A stretch of 50,668 nucleotides of DNA from Cytophagales bacterium (GTDB lineage Bacteria; Bacteroidota; Bacteroidia; Cytophagales; VRUD01): contig VRUD01000023.1 in the NCBI GenBank assembly GCA_019456305.1, positions 1 through 50,668 on the forward strand, written 5' to 3'. This document shows positions 28,176 to 42,516 of this stretch, in pieces. How positions within the stretch are numbered: the stretch's first letter is position 1; every line of letters starts with the position of its first letter. A program made the position numbers and the translations under genes. The notes beneath the pieces are model-generated. The model was given only the letters and a program-made list of their open reading frames with translations, was not told where the DNA came from and searched no databases.

Positions 28176-28191
28176 TGTTCCACGTGAAACA
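28176..28191. promoter_or_regulatory. parS site 1
   Basis: TGTTCCACGTGAAACA, identical to the well-known Bacillus parS consensus. Binding site for the chromosome-partition protein ParB. Confidence 0.92.
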
Positions 28192-28245
28192 TTAATTTAA
28201 ATTAAATTACTACATTTGCAATATTAGTCCAATTGCCAAACAATA

Positions 28246-28261
28246 TGTTTCACGTGAAACA
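28246..28261. promoter_or_regulatory. parS site 2
   Basis: TGTTTCACGTGAAACA, the fully palindromic form of parS. It lies 70 bp from site 1, just before the start of the MNT gene. Confidence 0.93.
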
Positions 28262-28267
28262 CTACAA

Positions 28268-28582
28268 ATGAAAGCCGACAAAAAGATATTAGAAAAGGTA
28301 AAAAACAGGTTGGTTAAAGCCTATAATCCATTGGCCATTTATCTGTTTGGCTCTCATGCATGGGGAGAGCCAGATAAAGACAGTGATCTGGATTTATTGG
28401 TCGTAGTAGCTAATGAAACCGAATTAGAAAGCCCAAAAGGGCTTAAAGGTCAATATGCCTTAGCAGATCTCGGAATTGCAAAAGACTTAATCATTACAAA
28501 ATTAGACAGGTTTAATCAACAGGCAAATCATCCTGCTACACTGTATTTTAAAATCAAAAATGAAGGGATCAAAATATACTGA
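28268..28582 (+). CDS. Minimal nucleotidyltransferase (MNT antitoxin type)
   Basis: 104 residues of the DNA polymerase beta-like nucleotidyltransferase superfamily. The signature LFGSHAWGEPDKDSDLDLLVVV (about residues 25-46) has GSxxxG and the DxD metal pair. In HEPN/MNT pairs the MNT protein AMPylates and silences the HEPN RNase. Here the HEPN gene that follows (from 28560, overlapping by 23 bp) is truncated, so the pair is no longer functional as such. Sits between parS sites 2 and 3. Confidence 0.88.
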   Translation: MKADKKILEKVKNRLVKAYNPLAIYLFGSHAWGEPDKDSDLDLLVVVANETELESPKGLKGQYALADLGIAKDLIITKLDRFNQQANHPATLYFKIKNEGIKIY

Positions 28583-28709
28583 ACCCTATGAAGATTGGCT
28601 TTTAAAAGCAAATAATGATTTGCTTTCATCTAAACATCTTTTTGAAAAACAAAATTTTAAAAAAATAAAAACGTTTCACGTGAAACATCTAACCAGTAAA
28701 ATAATCTGA
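28560..28709 (+). pseudogene. Truncated HEPN-domain gene
   Basis: 49 codons: MKGSKYTEPYEDWLLKANND and LLSSKHLFEKQNF are the typical first helix of HEPN proteins (DWLxKAxxDLxxAxxL). After residue about 33 the frame runs into the parS site (coding TFHVKHL) and soon stops. The catalytic RxxxxH helix of HEPN RNases is absent, so it is dead as an RNase. Confidence 0.75.
28672..28687. promoter_or_regulatory. parS site 3
   Basis: CGTTTCACGTGAAACA, one base off the full 16-bp palindrome. It lies inside the truncated HEPN frame, 46 bp before the mnmG start. Confidence 0.9.
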
Positions 28710-28732: not shown

Positions 28733-30781
28733 GTGTTCCCCAAATACGACATCATAATAGTAGGTGCCGGCCATGCCGGCTGCGAAGCTGCTCATGCCGC
28801 TGCAACAATGGGCTCCAAAGTCCTCTTGGTGACGATGGACATGACCCGTATTGCGCAGATGTCGTGCAATCCTGCAATGGGTGGTGTGGCAAAAGGTCAG
28901 ATCGTCAGGGAAATAGACGCCCTGGGCGGCATGTCAGGAATTGTATCAGACTGCACGATGATACAATTCCGTATGCTGAACAAGTCAAAAGGGGCTGCCA
29001 TGTGGAGCCCGAGATCGCAAAACGACCGGATGAGGTTTTCTGAAGAATGGCGGTTGATTCTGGAAAAGAATAAAAACATAGACTTCTGGCAGGAAATGGT
29101 GCGGGAGATAATAGTACACAAAAGTATGTCGGGTGGAAACACCCGACAACACGTGGCTGGCGTGAAAACCGGCATGGGGATCAATATCTATTCAAAAGCG
29201 GTAATACTCACTAACGGTACATTCTTAAACGGCATCATCCATATCGGTGAAAAAAAGTTTGGCGGGGGCAGGATCGGGGAAAAGACAGCCACAGGAATTA
29301 CCGAACAATTAGTTTCCCTCGGCTTTGAATCAGGCAGGATGAAAACCGGCACCCCCCCAAGAGTGGACGGCAGGTCGCTGGACTTTTCAAAGATGGAAGA
29401 ACAAAAAGGGGATGCAAATCCTGGTAAATTCTCTTTTACGCAAAAACCTGAATTGACTGAACAAAAAAGCTGCTTTATCACCTATACAAGCCCCGAAGTA
29501 CACGATATTCTTAAAACCGGCTTTAAAAGATCACCTATGTTCACCGGGCGTATCAAAGGCATCGGCCCGCGTTACTGTCCCTCCATAGAAGACAAAATAG
29601 ACAGGTTCGCTGATAGAGAACGGCACCAGTTGTTCGTGGAACCGGAAGGATGGGATACCATTGAGATCTATGTAAACGGCTTTTCTACCTCTCTTCCTGA
29701 AGATGTGCAATATAAAGCGCTTACCAGGATACCCGGTTTTGAAAATGTAAAAATGTTTCGTCCCGGCTATGCCATCGAATACGATTATTTTCCTCCTACT
29801 CAATTAAACTTAACCCTGGAAACAAAGCCGGTCGAAAACCTCTATTTTGCAGGACAGATCAATGGCACTACCGGCTACGAAGAAGCTGCATGCCAGGGCC
29901 TGATGGCTGGAATTAACGCCCACACCAAAATAAAGAATAAAGAAAATTTTACCCTCAAAAGGTCAGAAGCCTACATGGGTGTGCTGATAGATGACCTGAT
30001 CAACAAAGGGACAGATGAACCTTACAGGATGTTCACATCAAGAGCAGAACACCGGATCCTGTTAAGACAGGATAATGCGGATATCAGGCTGACAAAAAAA
30101 GGCTATGGCCTGGGATTGATAAAAGAAGAAAGAATGACCGGATTAAAAAACAAGATCGATCAAATTTCAAGCTTGACGAAGGAATTAAAGAAAAAAAAAT
30201 ATACCCCGGAAGAAATAAATCCAACATTGATCAAATTAAACTCCGCCCCGGTCAAAGAAAAAACCAATGTCTATTCCCTGTTAAAAAGACCCAATATTGA
30301 TCTTGAAACATTATGTAATAATCATAAGAAATTTAAAAGTTTTATTGATCAAATTTTACCCTCATTGTTAGAAGAAGAGGAAATAAGGGAAATAAAGGGA
30401 ATAGGGGAAGTCGGCAGTCTTCAGTCGGCAGTCAGCAAAATGACCAATGACGCGGGAGGGAGTTCCCCCTTCAGGGGGTTAGGGGGTAGCGAGGAAATAG
30501 TCAGAACAAATAACGCTATGCGCTCAGAAGTGCTGGAACAGGTTTCAATCTTGATCAAATATGAAGATTATATCAATAAAGAACACCAATTGGTAGAAAA
30601 AATGAGCCGGTTGGATGATCTTAAAATTCAGTATTTGAATTATGATAAAATAGCTGCACTTTCCAATGAAGCAAGAGAAAAATTAAGCAAGATCAAACCC
30701 CAAACTATCGGCCAGGCATCAAGGATCAGCGGGGTGTCTCCGGCTGATGTTTCGGTGTTGATGGTTTATATGGGGAGGTAA
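28733..30781 (+). CDS. mnmG: tRNA uridine-5-carboxymethylaminomethyl modification enzyme MnmG
   Basis: FAD enzyme that with MnmE builds the cmnm5 group on U34 of several tRNAs. 682 residues, longer than the usual 620-630. The FAD fingerprint IIIVGAGHAGCEAA is at residues 6-19, MSCNPAMGGVAKGQI follows, and later NGTTGYEEAACQGL and the C-terminal HQLVEKMSRLDDLKI, ASRISGVSPADVSVLMVY. The extra length is an insert at about residues 557-597 coded by low-complexity and dyad repeats. Start is GTG 28733. mnmG is often near oriC, and here it lies beside three parS sites. Confidence 0.95.
   Translation: MFPKYDIIIVGAGHAGCEAAHAAATMGSKVLLVTMDMTRIAQMSCNPAMGGVAKGQIVREIDALGGMSGIVSDCTMIQFRMLNKSKGAAMWSPRSQNDRMRFSEEWRLILEKNKNIDFWQEMVREIIVHKSMSGGNTRQHVAGVKTGMGINIYSKAVILTNGTFLNGIIHIGEKKFGGGRIGEKTATGITEQLVSLGFESGRMKTGTPPRVDGRSLDFSKMEEQKGDANPGKFSFTQKPELTEQKSCFITYTSPEVHDILKTGFKRSPMFTGRIKGIGPRYCPSIEDKIDRFADRERHQLFVEPEGWDTIEIYVNGFSTSLPEDVQYKALTRIPGFENVKMFRPGYAIEYDYFPPTQLNLTLETKPVENLYFAGQINGTTGYEEAACQGLMAGINAHTKIKNKENFTLKRSEAYMGVLIDDLINKGTDEPYRMFTSRAEHRILLRQDNADIRLTKKGYGLGLIKEERMTGLKNKIDQISSLTKELKKKKYTPEEINPTLIKLNSAPVKEKTNVYSLLKRPNIDLETLCNNHKKFKSFIDQILPSLLEEEEIREIKGIGEVGSLQSAVSKMTNDAGGSSPFRGLGGSEEIVRTNNAMRSEVLEQVSILIKYEDYINKEHQLVEKMSRLDDLKIQYLNYDKIAALSNEAREKLSKIKPQTIGQASRISGVSPADVSVLMVYMGR
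30390..30525 (+). repeat. Repeat-derived insert coded inside mnmG
   Basis: Contains AAAGGGAATAGGGGAAG, CGGCAGTCTTCAGTCGGCAG and AGTTCCCCCTTCAGGGGGTT. These are intergenic-type repeats. They are translated as KGIGEVGSLQSAVSK...GGSSPFRGLGGSEE in the MnmG C-terminal domain. The first two blocks also occur inside pyc. Confidence 0.85.
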
Positions 30782-34540: not shown

Positions 34541-34562
34541 TCCTGTACATAAATGTACAGGA
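34541..34562. promoter_or_regulatory. Inverted repeat at the AbiE operon start
   Basis: TCCTGTACAT, AA, ATGTACAGGA: a perfect 22-bp palindrome ending at the AbiEi start codon region. AbiEi antitoxins of known systems bind inverted repeats in their own promoter, so this is a natural operator candidate; it may also hide the start codon in the mRNA. Confidence 0.55.
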
Positions 34563-35101
34563 TGAAGAAGCCAGATAAAATTTCACGCTTACTAAAGCTA
34601 AAGCAAGTTACCTTTCACACCAACGATCTCGCCATCATCTGGGGTATTTCTAACAAGAATACTTTATATACAACCATAAAACGTTACGTAAAAAACGGGG
34701 TGATGATCCGGCTTTATAAAGGTTTTTATTCTACCTTGCCACCCGGAGAGTTAGACCCTGTTGTACTTGGCATAAATTCATTGCATGCTTATGCCTATCT
34801 CAGCACTGAAACCATATTAGCACAACAAGGGGTGATCGCTCAATCTGTAAATTATATAACGCTGGTTTCAGGCATTTCAGCAAGATTCCATGTTGGTAAT
34901 AATGCATATATTTCAAGGCAATTAAAAGCCGAATATTTATACAACAACACAGGCATTACCACGGTCAACGAAATAAATACGGCCAGCCTTGAAAGGGCGA
35001 CTGCTGATATTCTATATTTTAACCCCACCTATTATTTTGATGCTCATAATGTAATAGATTGGGCAAAAGTAAAAAATATTCAAAAAGAAATTGGTTATTG
35101 A
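34553..35101 (+). CDS. abiEi: AbiEi-family antitoxin
   Basis: 182 residues from ATG 34553, or 179 from ATG 34562 (MKKPDKISRLLKL); I prefer the second because the first lies within the palindrome at 34541-34562. N-terminal winged helix (QVTFHTNDLAIIWGISNKNTLYTTIKRYVKNGVMIRLYKGFYS) followed by the AbiEi C-terminal domain (LNSLH..AYLSTETILAQQGVI). The antitoxin represses the operon and opposes the nucleotidyltransferase toxin. Its TGA overlaps the next ATG by one base. Confidence 0.85.
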   Translation: MYRMKKPDKISRLLKLKQVTFHTNDLAIIWGISNKNTLYTTIKRYVKNGVMIRLYKGFYSTLPPGELDPVVLGINSLHAYAYLSTETILAQQGVIAQSVNYITLVSGISARFHVGNNAYISRQLKAEYLYNNTGITTVNEINTASLERATADILYFNPTYYFDAHNVIDWAKVKNIQKEIGY

Positions 35102-35847
35102 TGTTTTTCTCAGCCAGACAAAATGCTCTGCATAAAGCTCAGTTATACAGGCTATTAACAACAATTATTGATGAGCCCGGTATAGCGCTGAATGTTTATT
35201 TTAAAGGGGGTACCTGCGCTGCAATGTTAGGCTATCTGAACAGATTTTCTGTTGACCTTGACTTTGACCTGAAAAAAGACGCAAATAAAAATGAATTAAG
35301 AAAAAAATTACTTCCTATATTTAAAATATTAGACTTAAAGGTAAAAGATCAAAGCAAAGAAGCGCTCCAATTTTTCCTGAAATATGAAGCGCTCCCAGGG
35401 CAAAGAAATACCATTAAACTTGAATTACTTGATAAATATATTGAGCCCAATCAATACAAACCACAATACTTAAAAGACATTGACAGAACTATGATTTGCC
35501 AGACTATTGAAACAATGTTTGCAAATAAATTGGTTGCAATCATTGACAGATATGAACAAAATGGCACTATTACAGGACGGGATATTTATGATACACATTA
35601 TTTCTTTAACAAAGGATATGCCTTCAATCATGAAATAATTGAATACAGAAGAAAAACCGATACGCTATCTTATTTGAGAGAACTGAGGAGCTTTATTGAT
35701 GACAAAATCAACCAAACGGTTATTGATCAGGGACTTAATCCTCTACTGGATTATAAAAGATTAACTCAAATAAGGAAAACCTTAAAAAATGAAGTATTAA
35801 TGTTTATTCAGGATGTAATAGAGAACATAGTTTCACAAATTGATTAA
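35101..35847 (+). CDS. abiEii: AbiEii-family nucleotidyltransferase toxin
   Basis: 248 residues from the ATG at 35101 that overlaps the AbiEi stop (TGATG). Nucleotidyltransferase motifs: FKGGTCAAML and SVDLDFDL (metal-binding DxD), then KLELLDKYIEP and the later IIDRYEQNGTITGRDIYDTHYF with the conserved RDIYD. AbiEii toxins attach nucleotides to tRNA ends and cause abortive infection in phage-infected cells. The pair looks complete. Confidence 0.88.
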   Translation: MFFSARQNALHKAQLYRLLTTIIDEPGIALNVYFKGGTCAAMLGYLNRFSVDLDFDLKKDANKNELRKKLLPIFKILDLKVKDQSKEALQFFLKYEALPGQRNTIKLELLDKYIEPNQYKPQYLKDIDRTMICQTIETMFANKLVAIIDRYEQNGTITGRDIYDTHYFFNKGYAFNHEIIEYRRKTDTLSYLRELRSFIDDKINQTVIDQGLNPLLDYKRLTQIRKTLKNEVLMFIQDVIENIVSQID

Positions 35848-36381: not shown

Positions 36382-38073
36382 ATGATCAGAAGAATATTTC
36401 AACTTATTAATTGTACAATCTTAATTAAGTGCTGCCTGTTACCTGTTTTCTACTGGATCACTTGCTCCTGTGCCAACATAACACCCCCAACCGGAGGTGA
36501 AATGGACACGGAAGCTCCCGCTTTGATCTCCAGCATTCCGCCTGATAAAAGCATCAATTTTCACAATAATAGCATCGAATTGGTATTTGATGAATGGATA
36601 AAGCAAAATGATCTAAAACAGCAGCTCATCATCACACCCTATACCGAAAATGAGTATAAGATCAGCATAAAGAAAAACAAGCTGCTGTTAGAATTCAAAG
36701 AGCCATTTGACAGCAATACAACCTATACTTTCTATTTCAGAGGGGGGATAAAAGACATCACTGAAGCAAACCTGTCAAACAACCTGACACTTGCCTTTAG
36801 CACCGGTTCTTATATAGATTCCGCATCCATAGAGGGAAAAGTGACCGATCTTATGACCAATATACCGGTAAATGACGTGATCGTTGCATTGTATGACGCA
36901 AAAGATACGACACATATCAAAACAGGCAAACCGCTTTATTTCACCAAGACAAATGAAGAAGGCGTCTATAAACTTGAGAATCTTAAAAAAATGAGTTATG
37001 AAATGTACGCCCTCTCAGATAAAAACAGCAACCTGATCTATGATCAGAGAATAGAAAAAGTTGGGTACTTAATAAACGAAATAGCTGACTCGGCTTTATC
37101 TGGGTCTTTCGATACTTCACATCAATTTAAACAAGATATCCAAATCTTTCAGTTAGACGATGAGCCTCCGATCTTTGTCCGTAAGCATTCAGAAAACGGG
37201 AACTATAAAATTGAATTTAACGAGGGGATAAAAACACTTAAACTGGCATTAAAGGAACCGGGCATAAAACCAGCCTTGATACATGATCTGTCAGAAGATG
37301 GTAAATTTCTAAATATTTACAATACCTTAAATTTTACCGACAGTGTAAGCATAAAGATTACCGCAACCGATTCCTCAGAAAATACATTGGCCATAGAAAA
37401 AAAAATATTGTTTAATGCACCTCAGACGGACACAATAAAAAAATTAATTATGAAAGTTTTACCAAAAGAAAATTCAAAAATAAACCCTGATTTAGTAGCA
37501 ACCATTACGTTTAATAAGCCGGTAAAAGACTTTAAGACAGACGCAATTGAAATACTTGAAGATTCAGCCAATAAAATCCAATTAACATATCCCGCTGACC
37601 TGGAATGGAATAATTATAAAACCGTATTGTATTTGAAAAAGAGGTTAAACGCACAGGACAGTATTAAACTGATAATAAAAAAACACACTTTCTTAAGCAT
37701 CCAAAACGATACCAATCAATACCAGGAGTTGAATTACAAAATTAAAAAAGAAACCAATTACGGATTGATAAGCGGAAATTTCAAAACGGATGAAACGCAT
37801 TATACCATCCAGCTTCTTGATCAAAAATTCAAAGTGATAGATACAATTCAAAATAAACCGTCATTTCAATTTTCTTACATAAAACCCGGATCATACCAAA
37901 TCAGGGTTTTAATAGATGATAATAATAACGGAAAATGGGATAAGGGCAATTATGAAAACAGAGCCCTGCCCGAACCTGTAATCTTTTATGATGAAACAAT
38001 AATGCTGAGAGCGAATTGGGAAATACTGGATATCAATTTTGAATATATTGATAATGTGTTTATAAAACCTTGA
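36382..38073 (+). CDS. Lipoprotein with Ig-like (Big_5) domains
   Basis: 563 residues. The N-terminus has a hydrophobic stretch ending TCSCANITPPTGGEMDTEAP, a lipoprotein signal with the Cys of SCAN, and the CAxxxPPTGGxxDxxAP start typical of a Bacteroidota envelope protein family. Big_5-like domains follow (LISSIPPDKSINFHNNSIELVFDEWI, NTTYTFYFRGGIKDITEANLSNN) and a carboxypeptidase-like region (IEGKVTDLMTNIPVNDVIVALYD). Probably outer-membrane anchored; the role is not known. Confidence 0.8.
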   Translation: MIRRIFQLINCTILIKCCLLPVFYWITCSCANITPPTGGEMDTEAPALISSIPPDKSINFHNNSIELVFDEWIKQNDLKQQLIITPYTENEYKISIKKNKLLLEFKEPFDSNTTYTFYFRGGIKDITEANLSNNLTLAFSTGSYIDSASIEGKVTDLMTNIPVNDVIVALYDAKDTTHIKTGKPLYFTKTNEEGVYKLENLKKMSYEMYALSDKNSNLIYDQRIEKVGYLINEIADSALSGSFDTSHQFKQDIQIFQLDDEPPIFVRKHSENGNYKIEFNEGIKTLKLALKEPGIKPALIHDLSEDGKFLNIYNTLNFTDSVSIKITATDSSENTLAIEKKILFNAPQTDTIKKLIMKVLPKENSKINPDLVATITFNKPVKDFKTDAIEILEDSANKIQLTYPADLEWNNYKTVLYLKKRLNAQDSIKLIIKKHTFLSIQNDTNQYQELNYKIKKETNYGLISGNFKTDETHYTIQLLDQKFKVIDTIQNKPSFQFSYIKPGSYQIRVLIDDNNNGKWDKGNYENRALPEPVIFYDETIMLRANWEILDINFEYIDNVFIKP

Positions 38074-38089
38074 TAAAATTGTTAGTAAA

Positions 38090-38410
38090 TCTACCTGATT
38101 TTAGTACAGTGATTTTGTGTGGATAATGTAAAGTTTTAACACTAATTATCAAAAGCTTACCAACATTATTCTAAATACATTGGTGTTAACAAAAAAAGGG
38201 AAAGTTGTCAATAAATATTTAACTAATTGATTTTCAGTTATTTACAAGTTAATAATTTGTGGATAAAATATTAATAAGTGCTTTTTTATAAACATTTTAA
38301 AAATACAAGAAAAAAATAAAAAAGTTTTCCACATATCCACATTGTATAATAATAATAAATAGTATGTATATATAAAAAAATTAATATATTTAATTGTTAA
38401 TAACTAAAAA
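38090..38410. other. Candidate chromosomal replication origin (oriC)
   Basis: A very AT-rich gap without genes, containing two perfect DnaA boxes TGTGGATAA at 38118-38126 and 38258-38266 and two one-mismatch boxes TTTTCCACA (38325-38333) and ATATCCACA (38333-38341), in the opposite orientation and sharing one base. An almost pure A/T stretch follows (38342-38410), suited to unwinding. Three parS sites lie 10 kb away beside mnmG. The remainder of the 38074-38500 gap shows nothing else. Confidence 0.72.
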
Positions 38411-38500
38411 AACAGAGAACGCATTCGGGTTTCCAGGATTTGAATATGGAAAATCAACACAATTTATATTGACTATCCGAGCAAGTAAATACATAAACAA

Positions 38501-39867: not shown

Positions 39868-40392
39868 ATGAATATAAAACACGCCTCGCTCAAAAAAATA
39901 ACCACTTTCATATTTGATGTGGACGGTGTGCTTAGCGATGGCACTGTATTGGCGCTTGATAGCGGGGAGCAGGCCAGAACATTTAATATCAAAGACGGCT
40001 ATGCAGTGCAGCTTGCTGTAAAGTTAGGTTACAACGTAGCCATAATTTCAACGGGAACCCGGATTGGCGTTCGGGAACGGCTGGAATTTCTTGCTATTAA
40101 AGATATTTTTATGGGAATTGAAGATAAGATCAAAGTTTTTGAAAATTACCTGGAAACAAAAAATATAACAGAAGATACCGTCCTGTATATGGGTGATGAC
40201 CTTCCTGATTATGCAATTCTAAAAAGAGTTGGCCTGGCTACTTGTCCTGCTGACGCTGCTGATGACATAAAAACTATCTGCCATTACATTTCATCTTTTC
40301 CAGGCGGGAAAGGAGCCGTACGTGATGTGATCGAGAAGGTGATGAAAATGCAGGGGAAATGGATGTTAGATCACGAATTAAAAAAACCATGA
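39868..40392 (+). CDS. kdsC: 3-deoxy-D-manno-octulosonate 8-phosphate phosphatase (KdsC-like HAD)
   Basis: Removes phosphate from KDO-8-P for lipopolysaccharide synthesis. 174 residues, single HAD domain without cap. Nucleophile motif FIFDVDGVLSDGT (Asp18), motif II IISTGTR, and motif IV YMGDDLPDYAILKRVGLATCPADA. The family also contains similar low-cap C0 phosphatases for other sugars. The last 4 bp overlap the start of the LRR gene (ATGA), so translation is coupled. Confidence 0.92.
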   Translation: MNIKHASLKKITTFIFDVDGVLSDGTVLALDSGEQARTFNIKDGYAVQLAVKLGYNVAIISTGTRIGVRERLEFLAIKDIFMGIEDKIKVFENYLETKNITEDTVLYMGDDLPDYAILKRVGLATCPADAADDIKTICHYISSFPGGKGAVRDVIEKVMKMQGKWMLDHELKKP

Positions 40393-42200
40393 ACTGCCGA
40401 TATATAGGAACACCATTATCGCTTATATGCTTGATCGTATACGTTTCATCTTTCGCCCAGAAAGCTGATGAAATTGCTAAAAGTGAAGTGATAAAGATAC
40501 TACAGAATTATGAAAATGCTTTAAATGCATTGGGCGATACCGCTATGAGCAACGAAGAAAGGAAACCAACTTTGAAAAAGTTTAGGAAAGATTTTGAAGC
40601 GAAGGATATTTTTGTTTTCAATGACCTTCCCGAAGACACAACTGTTGGCAAAGATAGTACCTCAATAGGTGATAAATTGCCCGGTTTTAGTCAGGCGAGG
40701 AGAGACTCTGCTGAAGAATATCTTACCATATATCAATATTTTAAGGACCTGCCTGTTTTGTATCCGAATGGGTTTAAAATTATGCTGGATAGGAAAAAGG
40801 TCAGGATAGGACCAATTAAAAAAAATAAAAAACGAAATACCTACATGATCGTTGCAAATGTTATAAAAAGGATTGAGATTACTGATGTGATTTTAGATAC
40901 TGGAAGGCATACATTCAGTAGGGCCTCTGATACGCTCGTTCCTCCCTACCTGCCCGCCAAAGGCAAAGCCCAAACATGGCAGGTGGGCGGTTCAGGCATT
41001 TCTTCCCGTCTTGTTGAAGATACAATGCGAATCGATACTTCCGCGACAGACACACTTGCAAAAGAAAAAAGATCCGATATGCTTACATCTACAATATATG
41101 ATACAATAGCATTTGATTCAGTGAGATATGATACTGTAACAAATAGAAAGTCTTACCATTTAACTTTCTTCATTAAGCTGGATATTAAGGAACAAATACC
41201 CCAAAACTTCAAAGTTTATGCGATCAGTAAGACAGGTGATGAACCGCGGCTCAAGCCGTTGCCCGAAATTGTTTCGTGGTGGGTATCTATGGATGATCCG
41301 TGGAAAAAAGTATTTTCAGAAAAATTGACATTTCCGGAATTCCCCGGCGTTAAAGAGCTAAATCATGTTTATTCTTTGAGGGAATTGACTTGCTCCGGTG
41401 AGGACATTACTACCCTGGAGCCAATTCGCAACTTAAAACAGCTTCGAATATTGAAATGTTCAGGCACATCTGTTAGTTCCCTTGAGCCTGTTGCTGAACT
41501 TGAAAATCTGGTATGGCTCAAAATAAACAAGAATAAGCTCACCAGCCTGGAACTGATTAAGAACCTTGTCAATCTTCAAAAGCTTGAATGCAGCGGGCAG
41601 GATATCTCCTCCCTGGCGCCTTTAAAAAACCTGGTGAATTTGATAGAGCTTGACTGCTCTGACAATGAGCTGGAAGATATTGAGCCGCTCAGATATCTTG
41701 ACAGCCTGGAAAGAGTTGACTTTTCACTCAATACAGATATAAGCAATATTGAACCGGTACGAAAGCTGACTAAATTAGTAGAGCTGCGTTTTGGTAAAAT
41801 AGACATCAAATCGCTTGAACCTGTAAAGAATTTGACCAACCTGATAGAGCTGGATTGTTTTAATACTGAAATTTCATCCCTCGAGCCATTAAAGGGGCTC
41901 CGCAAGCTTGCCTTGCTCAATTGCAGCTATACAAAGATAACAACCCTTGACCCGATAAGCAAGCACCGGTATATTGCCTGGCTTTATATTTCAGGAAACA
42001 CCATTGATGATATTGGCTTTTTAAAAAATTTTACTTTTCTCAAAGAGTTGGATATATCAAAAACTTCTGTGAGCAGCCTTGATGCTATCCAAAAACTTGA
42101 GTTTATTGAAATGCTAAAGTGCTTTTATACCAAAATTTCCAAAGAGGAGGTGCAGCGTTTTAAGAAGAAGCATCCGAGATGTGCGATCACTTATTATTAA
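40389..42200 (+). CDS. Exported leucine-rich repeat protein
   Basis: 603 residues from the ATG at 40389 (MNCRYIGTPLSLICLIVYVSSFAQ, a clear signal peptide). An N-terminal region of no known family (about 25-325) is followed by about eleven 22-residue SDS22-like repeats (SLEPIKNLVNLQKLECSGQDIS pattern) to the end. LRRs of this type bind proteins. Coupled to kdsC by a 4-bp overlap, yet no clear functional link. A dyad-coded insert (PPYLPAKGKAQTWQVGGSG) lies near residues 185-203. The end overlaps the convergent toxin gene by 14 bp. Confidence 0.82.
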   Translation: MNCRYIGTPLSLICLIVYVSSFAQKADEIAKSEVIKILQNYENALNALGDTAMSNEERKPTLKKFRKDFEAKDIFVFNDLPEDTTVGKDSTSIGDKLPGFSQARRDSAEEYLTIYQYFKDLPVLYPNGFKIMLDRKKVRIGPIKKNKKRNTYMIVANVIKRIEITDVILDTGRHTFSRASDTLVPPYLPAKGKAQTWQVGGSGISSRLVEDTMRIDTSATDTLAKEKRSDMLTSTIYDTIAFDSVRYDTVTNRKSYHLTFFIKLDIKEQIPQNFKVYAISKTGDEPRLKPLPEIVSWWVSMDDPWKKVFSEKLTFPEFPGVKELNHVYSLRELTCSGEDITTLEPIRNLKQLRILKCSGTSVSSLEPVAELENLVWLKINKNKLTSLELIKNLVNLQKLECSGQDISSLAPLKNLVNLIELDCSDNELEDIEPLRYLDSLERVDFSLNTDISNIEPVRKLTKLVELRFGKIDIKSLEPVKNLTNLIELDCFNTEISSLEPLKGLRKLALLNCSYTKITTLDPISKHRYIAWLYISGNTIDDIGFLKNFTFLKELDISKTSVSSLDAIQKLEFIEMLKCFYTKISKEEVQRFKKKHPRCAITYY

Positions 42201-42516
42201 ATTTTAGCAGTTTCTGAATTTCTTTTTTAGAAATGCTGTCTTTCTCTCCTTTATCGTAAATAGTAAGCAAGTAAATTTCTTTATCAATCGTAACAACAAA
42301 AATAATCACTCTTGCACCGCCACTTTTACCTTTTCCTTTACTGGCAATAGCTAAGCGATTTTTATAAACATTATTTCCCAAATGGATTCCTGATGTTGGA
42401 TTTTTTAAGAGTTGTTTTTTAAACTCCTTGACATCTTCTTTTAAAGAATGGTATTTTTTAGCAAGTTTTTTGAGTTGTTTGCTAAATTCAGGAGAGTAAA
42501 TAATATTAAAGCTCAT
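42187..42516 (-). CDS. RelE-type toxin
   Basis: 109 residues: MSFNIIYSPEFSKQLKKLAKKYHSLKEDVKEFKKQLLKNPTSGIHLG, then GKSGGARVIIFVVTIDKEIYLLTIYDKGEKDSISKKEI. The GGARVI...IYLLTIYDKGE pattern is typical of a Bacteroidota RelE-like (HigB-like) mRNA interferase family. It overlaps the antitoxin frame by 11 bp. Convergent with the LRR gene. Confidence 0.85.
   Translation of the reverse strand: MSFNIIYSPEFSKQLKKLAKKYHSLKEDVKEFKKQLLKNPTSGIHLGNNVYKNRLAIASKGKGKSGGARVIIFVVTIDKEIYLLTIYDKGEKDSISKKEIQKLLKFNNK

Follow-up and report, generated by a model that had tools for sequence, protein, structure and literature searches.

Where does replication of the chromosome begin in bacteria of the order Cytophagales, and does a short AT-rich gap next to a lipoprotein gene mark the place in one of them? 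A literature search found no description of a Cytophagales oriC, and a paper on C. hutchinsonii names oriC only in its plasmid table. The window, meaning the whole stretch of DNA that was analyzed (50,668 nucleotides), is the complete contig C23 of a 4.25-Mb draft genome in 159 contigs, and T9SS sorting domains and SprB repeats identify this genome as a member of the Bacteroidota. The presence of mnmG, rho, tgt, and pyruvate carboxylase genes shows that the contig is chromosomal. A sequence-only reading had proposed a probable oriC that ended at position 38410; this end proved well chosen, within a gap that runs as a whole from 38074 to 38500. Evidence from relatives, which was new to that reading, supports its proposal and strengthens the verdict: the gap is very probably the chromosomal origin, and one of an ordinary kind. 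This identification is supported by the position of a box cluster, by the GC-skew minima of relatives, by a module of boxes, spacer, and triplets, and by a nearby mnmG-parS cluster. The features concerned are as follows.

28176-28191: parS site, one mismatch (motif scan)
28246-28261: parS site, exact (motif scan)
28672-28687: parS site, one mismatch (motif scan)
28733-30781, + strand: mnmG (gidA; PF01134); most relatives read likewise have it left of the Ig-like gene
36382-38073, + strand: Big_5 Ig-like lipoprotein gene (PF13205), conserved left neighbor of oriC, found in 59 of 59 genomes of the relatives search, its own included
38074-38500: intergenic gap taken as oriC, 427 bp, 22% GC, no gene, four DnaA boxes
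38118-38126, + strand: DnaA box, exact TGTGGATAA (motif scan)
38258-38266, + strand: DnaA box, exact TGTGGATAA (motif scan)
38325-38333, − strand: DnaA box, one mismatch, TGTGGAAAA (TTTTCCACA on the + strand), first of a tandem pair; same tandem arrangement in relatives
38333-38341, − strand: DnaA box, one mismatch, TGTGGATAT (ATATCCACA on the + strand), second of the tandem pair; same tandem arrangement in relatives
38341-38410: probable DNA unwinding element, 93% AT (92.9%), the most AT-rich 70 bp of the window
38342-38345: spacer TTGT, separating the tandem boxes from the triplets; most relatives have a GC-rich one
38346-38357, − strand: four ATA triplets on the + strand (3'-TAT-5' on the − strand), putatively DnaA-trio-like by the trio rule of PMC8287927
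38501-39646, + strand: methionine aminotransferase (NF006569), right neighbor but not the conserved one

DnaA boxes and the AT-rich tract

The four DnaA boxes of the gap span 224 bp, within the 225 bp originally suggested, and their arrangement is as it had been described. Two are perfect, lie on the + strand, and are 140 bp apart; two near-perfect boxes in the opposite orientation form a tandem pair that has base 38333 in common and adjoins the nearly pure A/T tract. The whole window shows no enrichment of boxes with at most one mismatch (14 found, 17.2 expected), and 4 of these 14 fall inside the gap, including the only two exact ones of the window. Of 5000 dinucleotide shuffles of the gap, 0.04% had at least four boxes and none had two exact ones. 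Across the genome the exact box occurs at chance frequency (46 sites, compared with 44 for a reversed control pattern), and the sole further pair within 150 bp is on contig C76. The number of boxes counts against an origin, there being only four, two of them imperfect, whereas many relatives have 12-20 sites that are exact or have one mismatch.

Conservation of the position in relatives

Many families of the order keep oriC at this position, which is distant from dnaA. Boxes were counted within 1.5 kb of the Ig-like gene at 30 loci (29 relatives and the window), giving 51 exact boxes downstream of the gene, 3 upstream, and 5 inside it. At least one exact box lies just 3' of the gene in 11 of the 29 relatives, and at least three in 9 of 29; the 18 relatives with no exact box there count against the identification. 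Most of 11 relatives read further have the gene order mnmG, in some cases a methyltransferase, Ig-like gene, gap, and a gene for a TPR-repeat protein. According to the search tables, the Ig-like and TPR genes are neighbors on one contig in 29 genomes, and in four genomes where the two are apart (G013, G024, G055, and G028) the boxes are found with the TPR gene. In the genome studied here, the TPR homologue is located on contig C35 and not at the gap, which also counts against an origin. Since the right neighbor differs, and no boxes were found upstream of the homologue on C35, a rearrangement has probably separated the TPR gene, with the boxes staying with the Ig-like gene.

Several lineages vary in the placement or the sequence of their boxes. 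In G036, 12 exact boxes lie within 0.7 kb (locus L206, C1:2058889-2059576); neither the Ig-like gene (1.85 Mb) nor the TPR gene (3.22 Mb) is nearby, and the origin of this lineage has probably been relocated. To the left of these boxes, at a distance of a few kb, is a long masked stretch (runs of N). In G038, exact boxes are absent from the 1.5 kb upstream of the TPR gene (locus L230), which has 15 boxes with one mismatch. The boxes within the 260 bp inspected read TTATTCACA/TGTGAATAA, and this lineage seems to have undergone a change in the box sequence itself. Locus L098 of G007 has seven further exact boxes spread over the Ig-like gene itself and its upstream side, unlike any other of the 30 loci.

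GC skew in single-contig relatives

The corresponding locus falls within the interval estimated for the GC-skew minimum in four relatives assembled as single contigs. Skew was sampled in 20-kb stretches with correction for the coding strand, and a simple two-step model was fitted to few samples, so that the 95% profile intervals are approximate. Three of these relatives come from three families. The interval in G003 is 3.34-3.74 Mb of 8.98 (5% of the chromosome) and contains the locus at 3.67; in G045 it is 1.78-2.74 Mb of 5.09 (19%), with the locus at 2.01; and in G008 it is 1.29-2.20 Mb of 3.33 (28%), with the locus at 1.75. The best skew point in G003 is ∼0.3 Mb from the locus, which stands near the edge of the interval and to that extent counts against an origin. 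In the fourth relative, G028, the gene order is broken, with 2.3 Mb between the Ig-like gene and the box cluster. Here, the box cluster (6.624) falls inside the interval (6.33-6.64 Mb), and the log-likelihood statistic is 0.0 at the cluster compared with 32.6 at the Ig-like gene, which is rejected.

Chromosomal context

The parS cluster that had been cited in favor of this location is borne out: its sites comprise the only three full ones in the genome, all at 28176-28687 beside mnmG and 9.4 kb from the gap. The dnaA gene is not adjacent, again as had been stated, and is located on contig C14. An origin beside gidA/mnmG is known from Escherichia coli and Yersinia pestis, where oriC lies in the gidA-mioC region (PMC10225481). 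The window and most relatives read agree with these species in the side on which mnmG lies; the window differs in having ∼7.3 kb between mnmG and the gap, and in having the Ig-like gene as the direct neighbor.

The region between mnmG and the Ig-like gene contains an AbiEi/AbiEii type IV toxin-antitoxin pair (34553-35847); in most relatives read this interval holds a methyltransferase gene at most. Further to the right, a RelE-family toxin gene (42187-42516, − strand) overlaps the end of an open reading frame for a leucine-rich-repeat protein (40359-42200).

A module of tandem boxes, spacer, and triplets

Many relatives have a short spacer, mostly GC-rich, and then (C)TAATAATA-like triplets after the box or tandem pair that comes last before the TPR gene. 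Judged from its sequence, this right-end module (usually tandem boxes, a short GC-rich spacer, and TAA-type triplets) resembles the basal unwinding system (BUS). The window has the module at 38325-38357, as TTTTCCACATATCCACA, then TTGT, then four ATA. A published rule for BUS searches takes a box, a spacer of up to 16 nt, and at least three triplets 3'-NAN-5' (PMC8287927), and the window conforms to it with the box at 38333-38341, a 4-nt spacer, and four triplets. A stricter triplet pattern, 5'-[CT]T[AT]-3', gave no run of at least three at the window boxes and was dropped in favor of this looser rule. Statistical support for the triplets is moderate: for 17 last-box flanks, the triplet runs were reached in 0 of 500 base shuffles, and comparison with other boxes of the same regions gave a Fisher p of 0.06. 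Another list, of 21 flanks picked by eye, serves as illustration only.

The window shares with BUS origins such as that of Bacillus subtilis the tandem boxes, the 4-nt spacer, and the AT-rich tract adjoining the triplets, and it has at least three triplets with a middle T on the box strand (3'-NAN-5' on the other). It differs in that its triplets are 3'-TAT-5', whereas the common form is 3'-GAT-5', and in that the origin is not beside dnaA. The triplets of many relatives start with CTA, which is 3'-GAT-5' as in the common BUS form.

These features suggest how the origin may work. DnaA would bind the two exact boxes and the tandem pair, and a DnaA-ATP oligomer would then grow rightwards from the tandem pair (38325-38341) over the spacer and the TAA-type triplets, opening the AT tract. 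Helicase would be loaded at the opened tract, from which two forks would leave for bidirectional replication. The duplicated origins would probably be segregated by ParB acting on the parS cluster.

Alternative explanations

The boxes might instead form a DnaA-regulated promoter for the methionine aminotransferase gene, directly upstream of which the gap lies; DnaA boxes do occur in promoters of other bacteria. However, among 77 homologues of this gene with upstream sequence, just 2 have an exact box within 1 kb, each time singly and ∼640 bp away; what the boxes do go with is the skew minimum and the Ig-like or TPR genes. We consider this explanation very unlikely. The aminotransferase was also rejected as an anchor for the locus, its homologues having no upstream box clusters. 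There is similarly little to be said for an integrated plasmid or phage whose origin the gap would be, as the AbiE pair might suggest. The contig has the housekeeping genes listed above, other families keep the position in their chromosomes, and none of the window proteins scanned was identified as a replication initiator; such an origin is extremely improbable.

The origin could also have moved elsewhere, for example to the C76 box pair, to dnaA, or into an unassembled gap, leaving 38074-38500 as a relic. Origins have shifted relative to their flanking genes in this order, as illustrated by the 12 exact boxes of G036, and C76 carries two exact boxes 117 bp apart. Yet one would hardly expect tandem boxes, spacer, triplets, and AT tract all to survive side by side in a relic, and no box cluster was found at dnaA on C14. 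The C76 pair (C76:18329-18454) is in an AT-rich intergenic region before a CLC channel gene, with a gene for a T9SS-type secreted protein on the other flank; it was set aside as an origin given this divergent-gene setting, without tandem boxes. A move of this kind is very unlikely.

Implications for the order

As a chromosomal origin, the gap at 38074-38500 has what is looked for in a bacterial oriC, namely a box cluster beyond chance, an adjoining AT-rich tract, and a genomic position that is conserved. A broader proposal is offered tentatively, as a possibility that we hold to be rather doubtful: that a standard origin particular to the order exists, arranged as mnmG, Ig-like lipoprotein, oriC, and TPR protein; that its one-sided opening module consists of boxes, GC-rich spacer, and (C)TAATAATA; and that this module is retained even as the boxes around it, and in G038 the box sequence too (TTATTCACA), undergo change. 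The triplets would then be a DnaA-trio variant read mainly as 3'-TAT-5'.

The dnaA gene is no guide to oriC in this order; the gene-context rule and the sequence module are useful for its draft genomes, in which they make oriC locatable. Along with this, lineages with a changed origin place or box sequence (G036 and G038) are now marked, so that co-evolution of DnaA and its box becomes testable.
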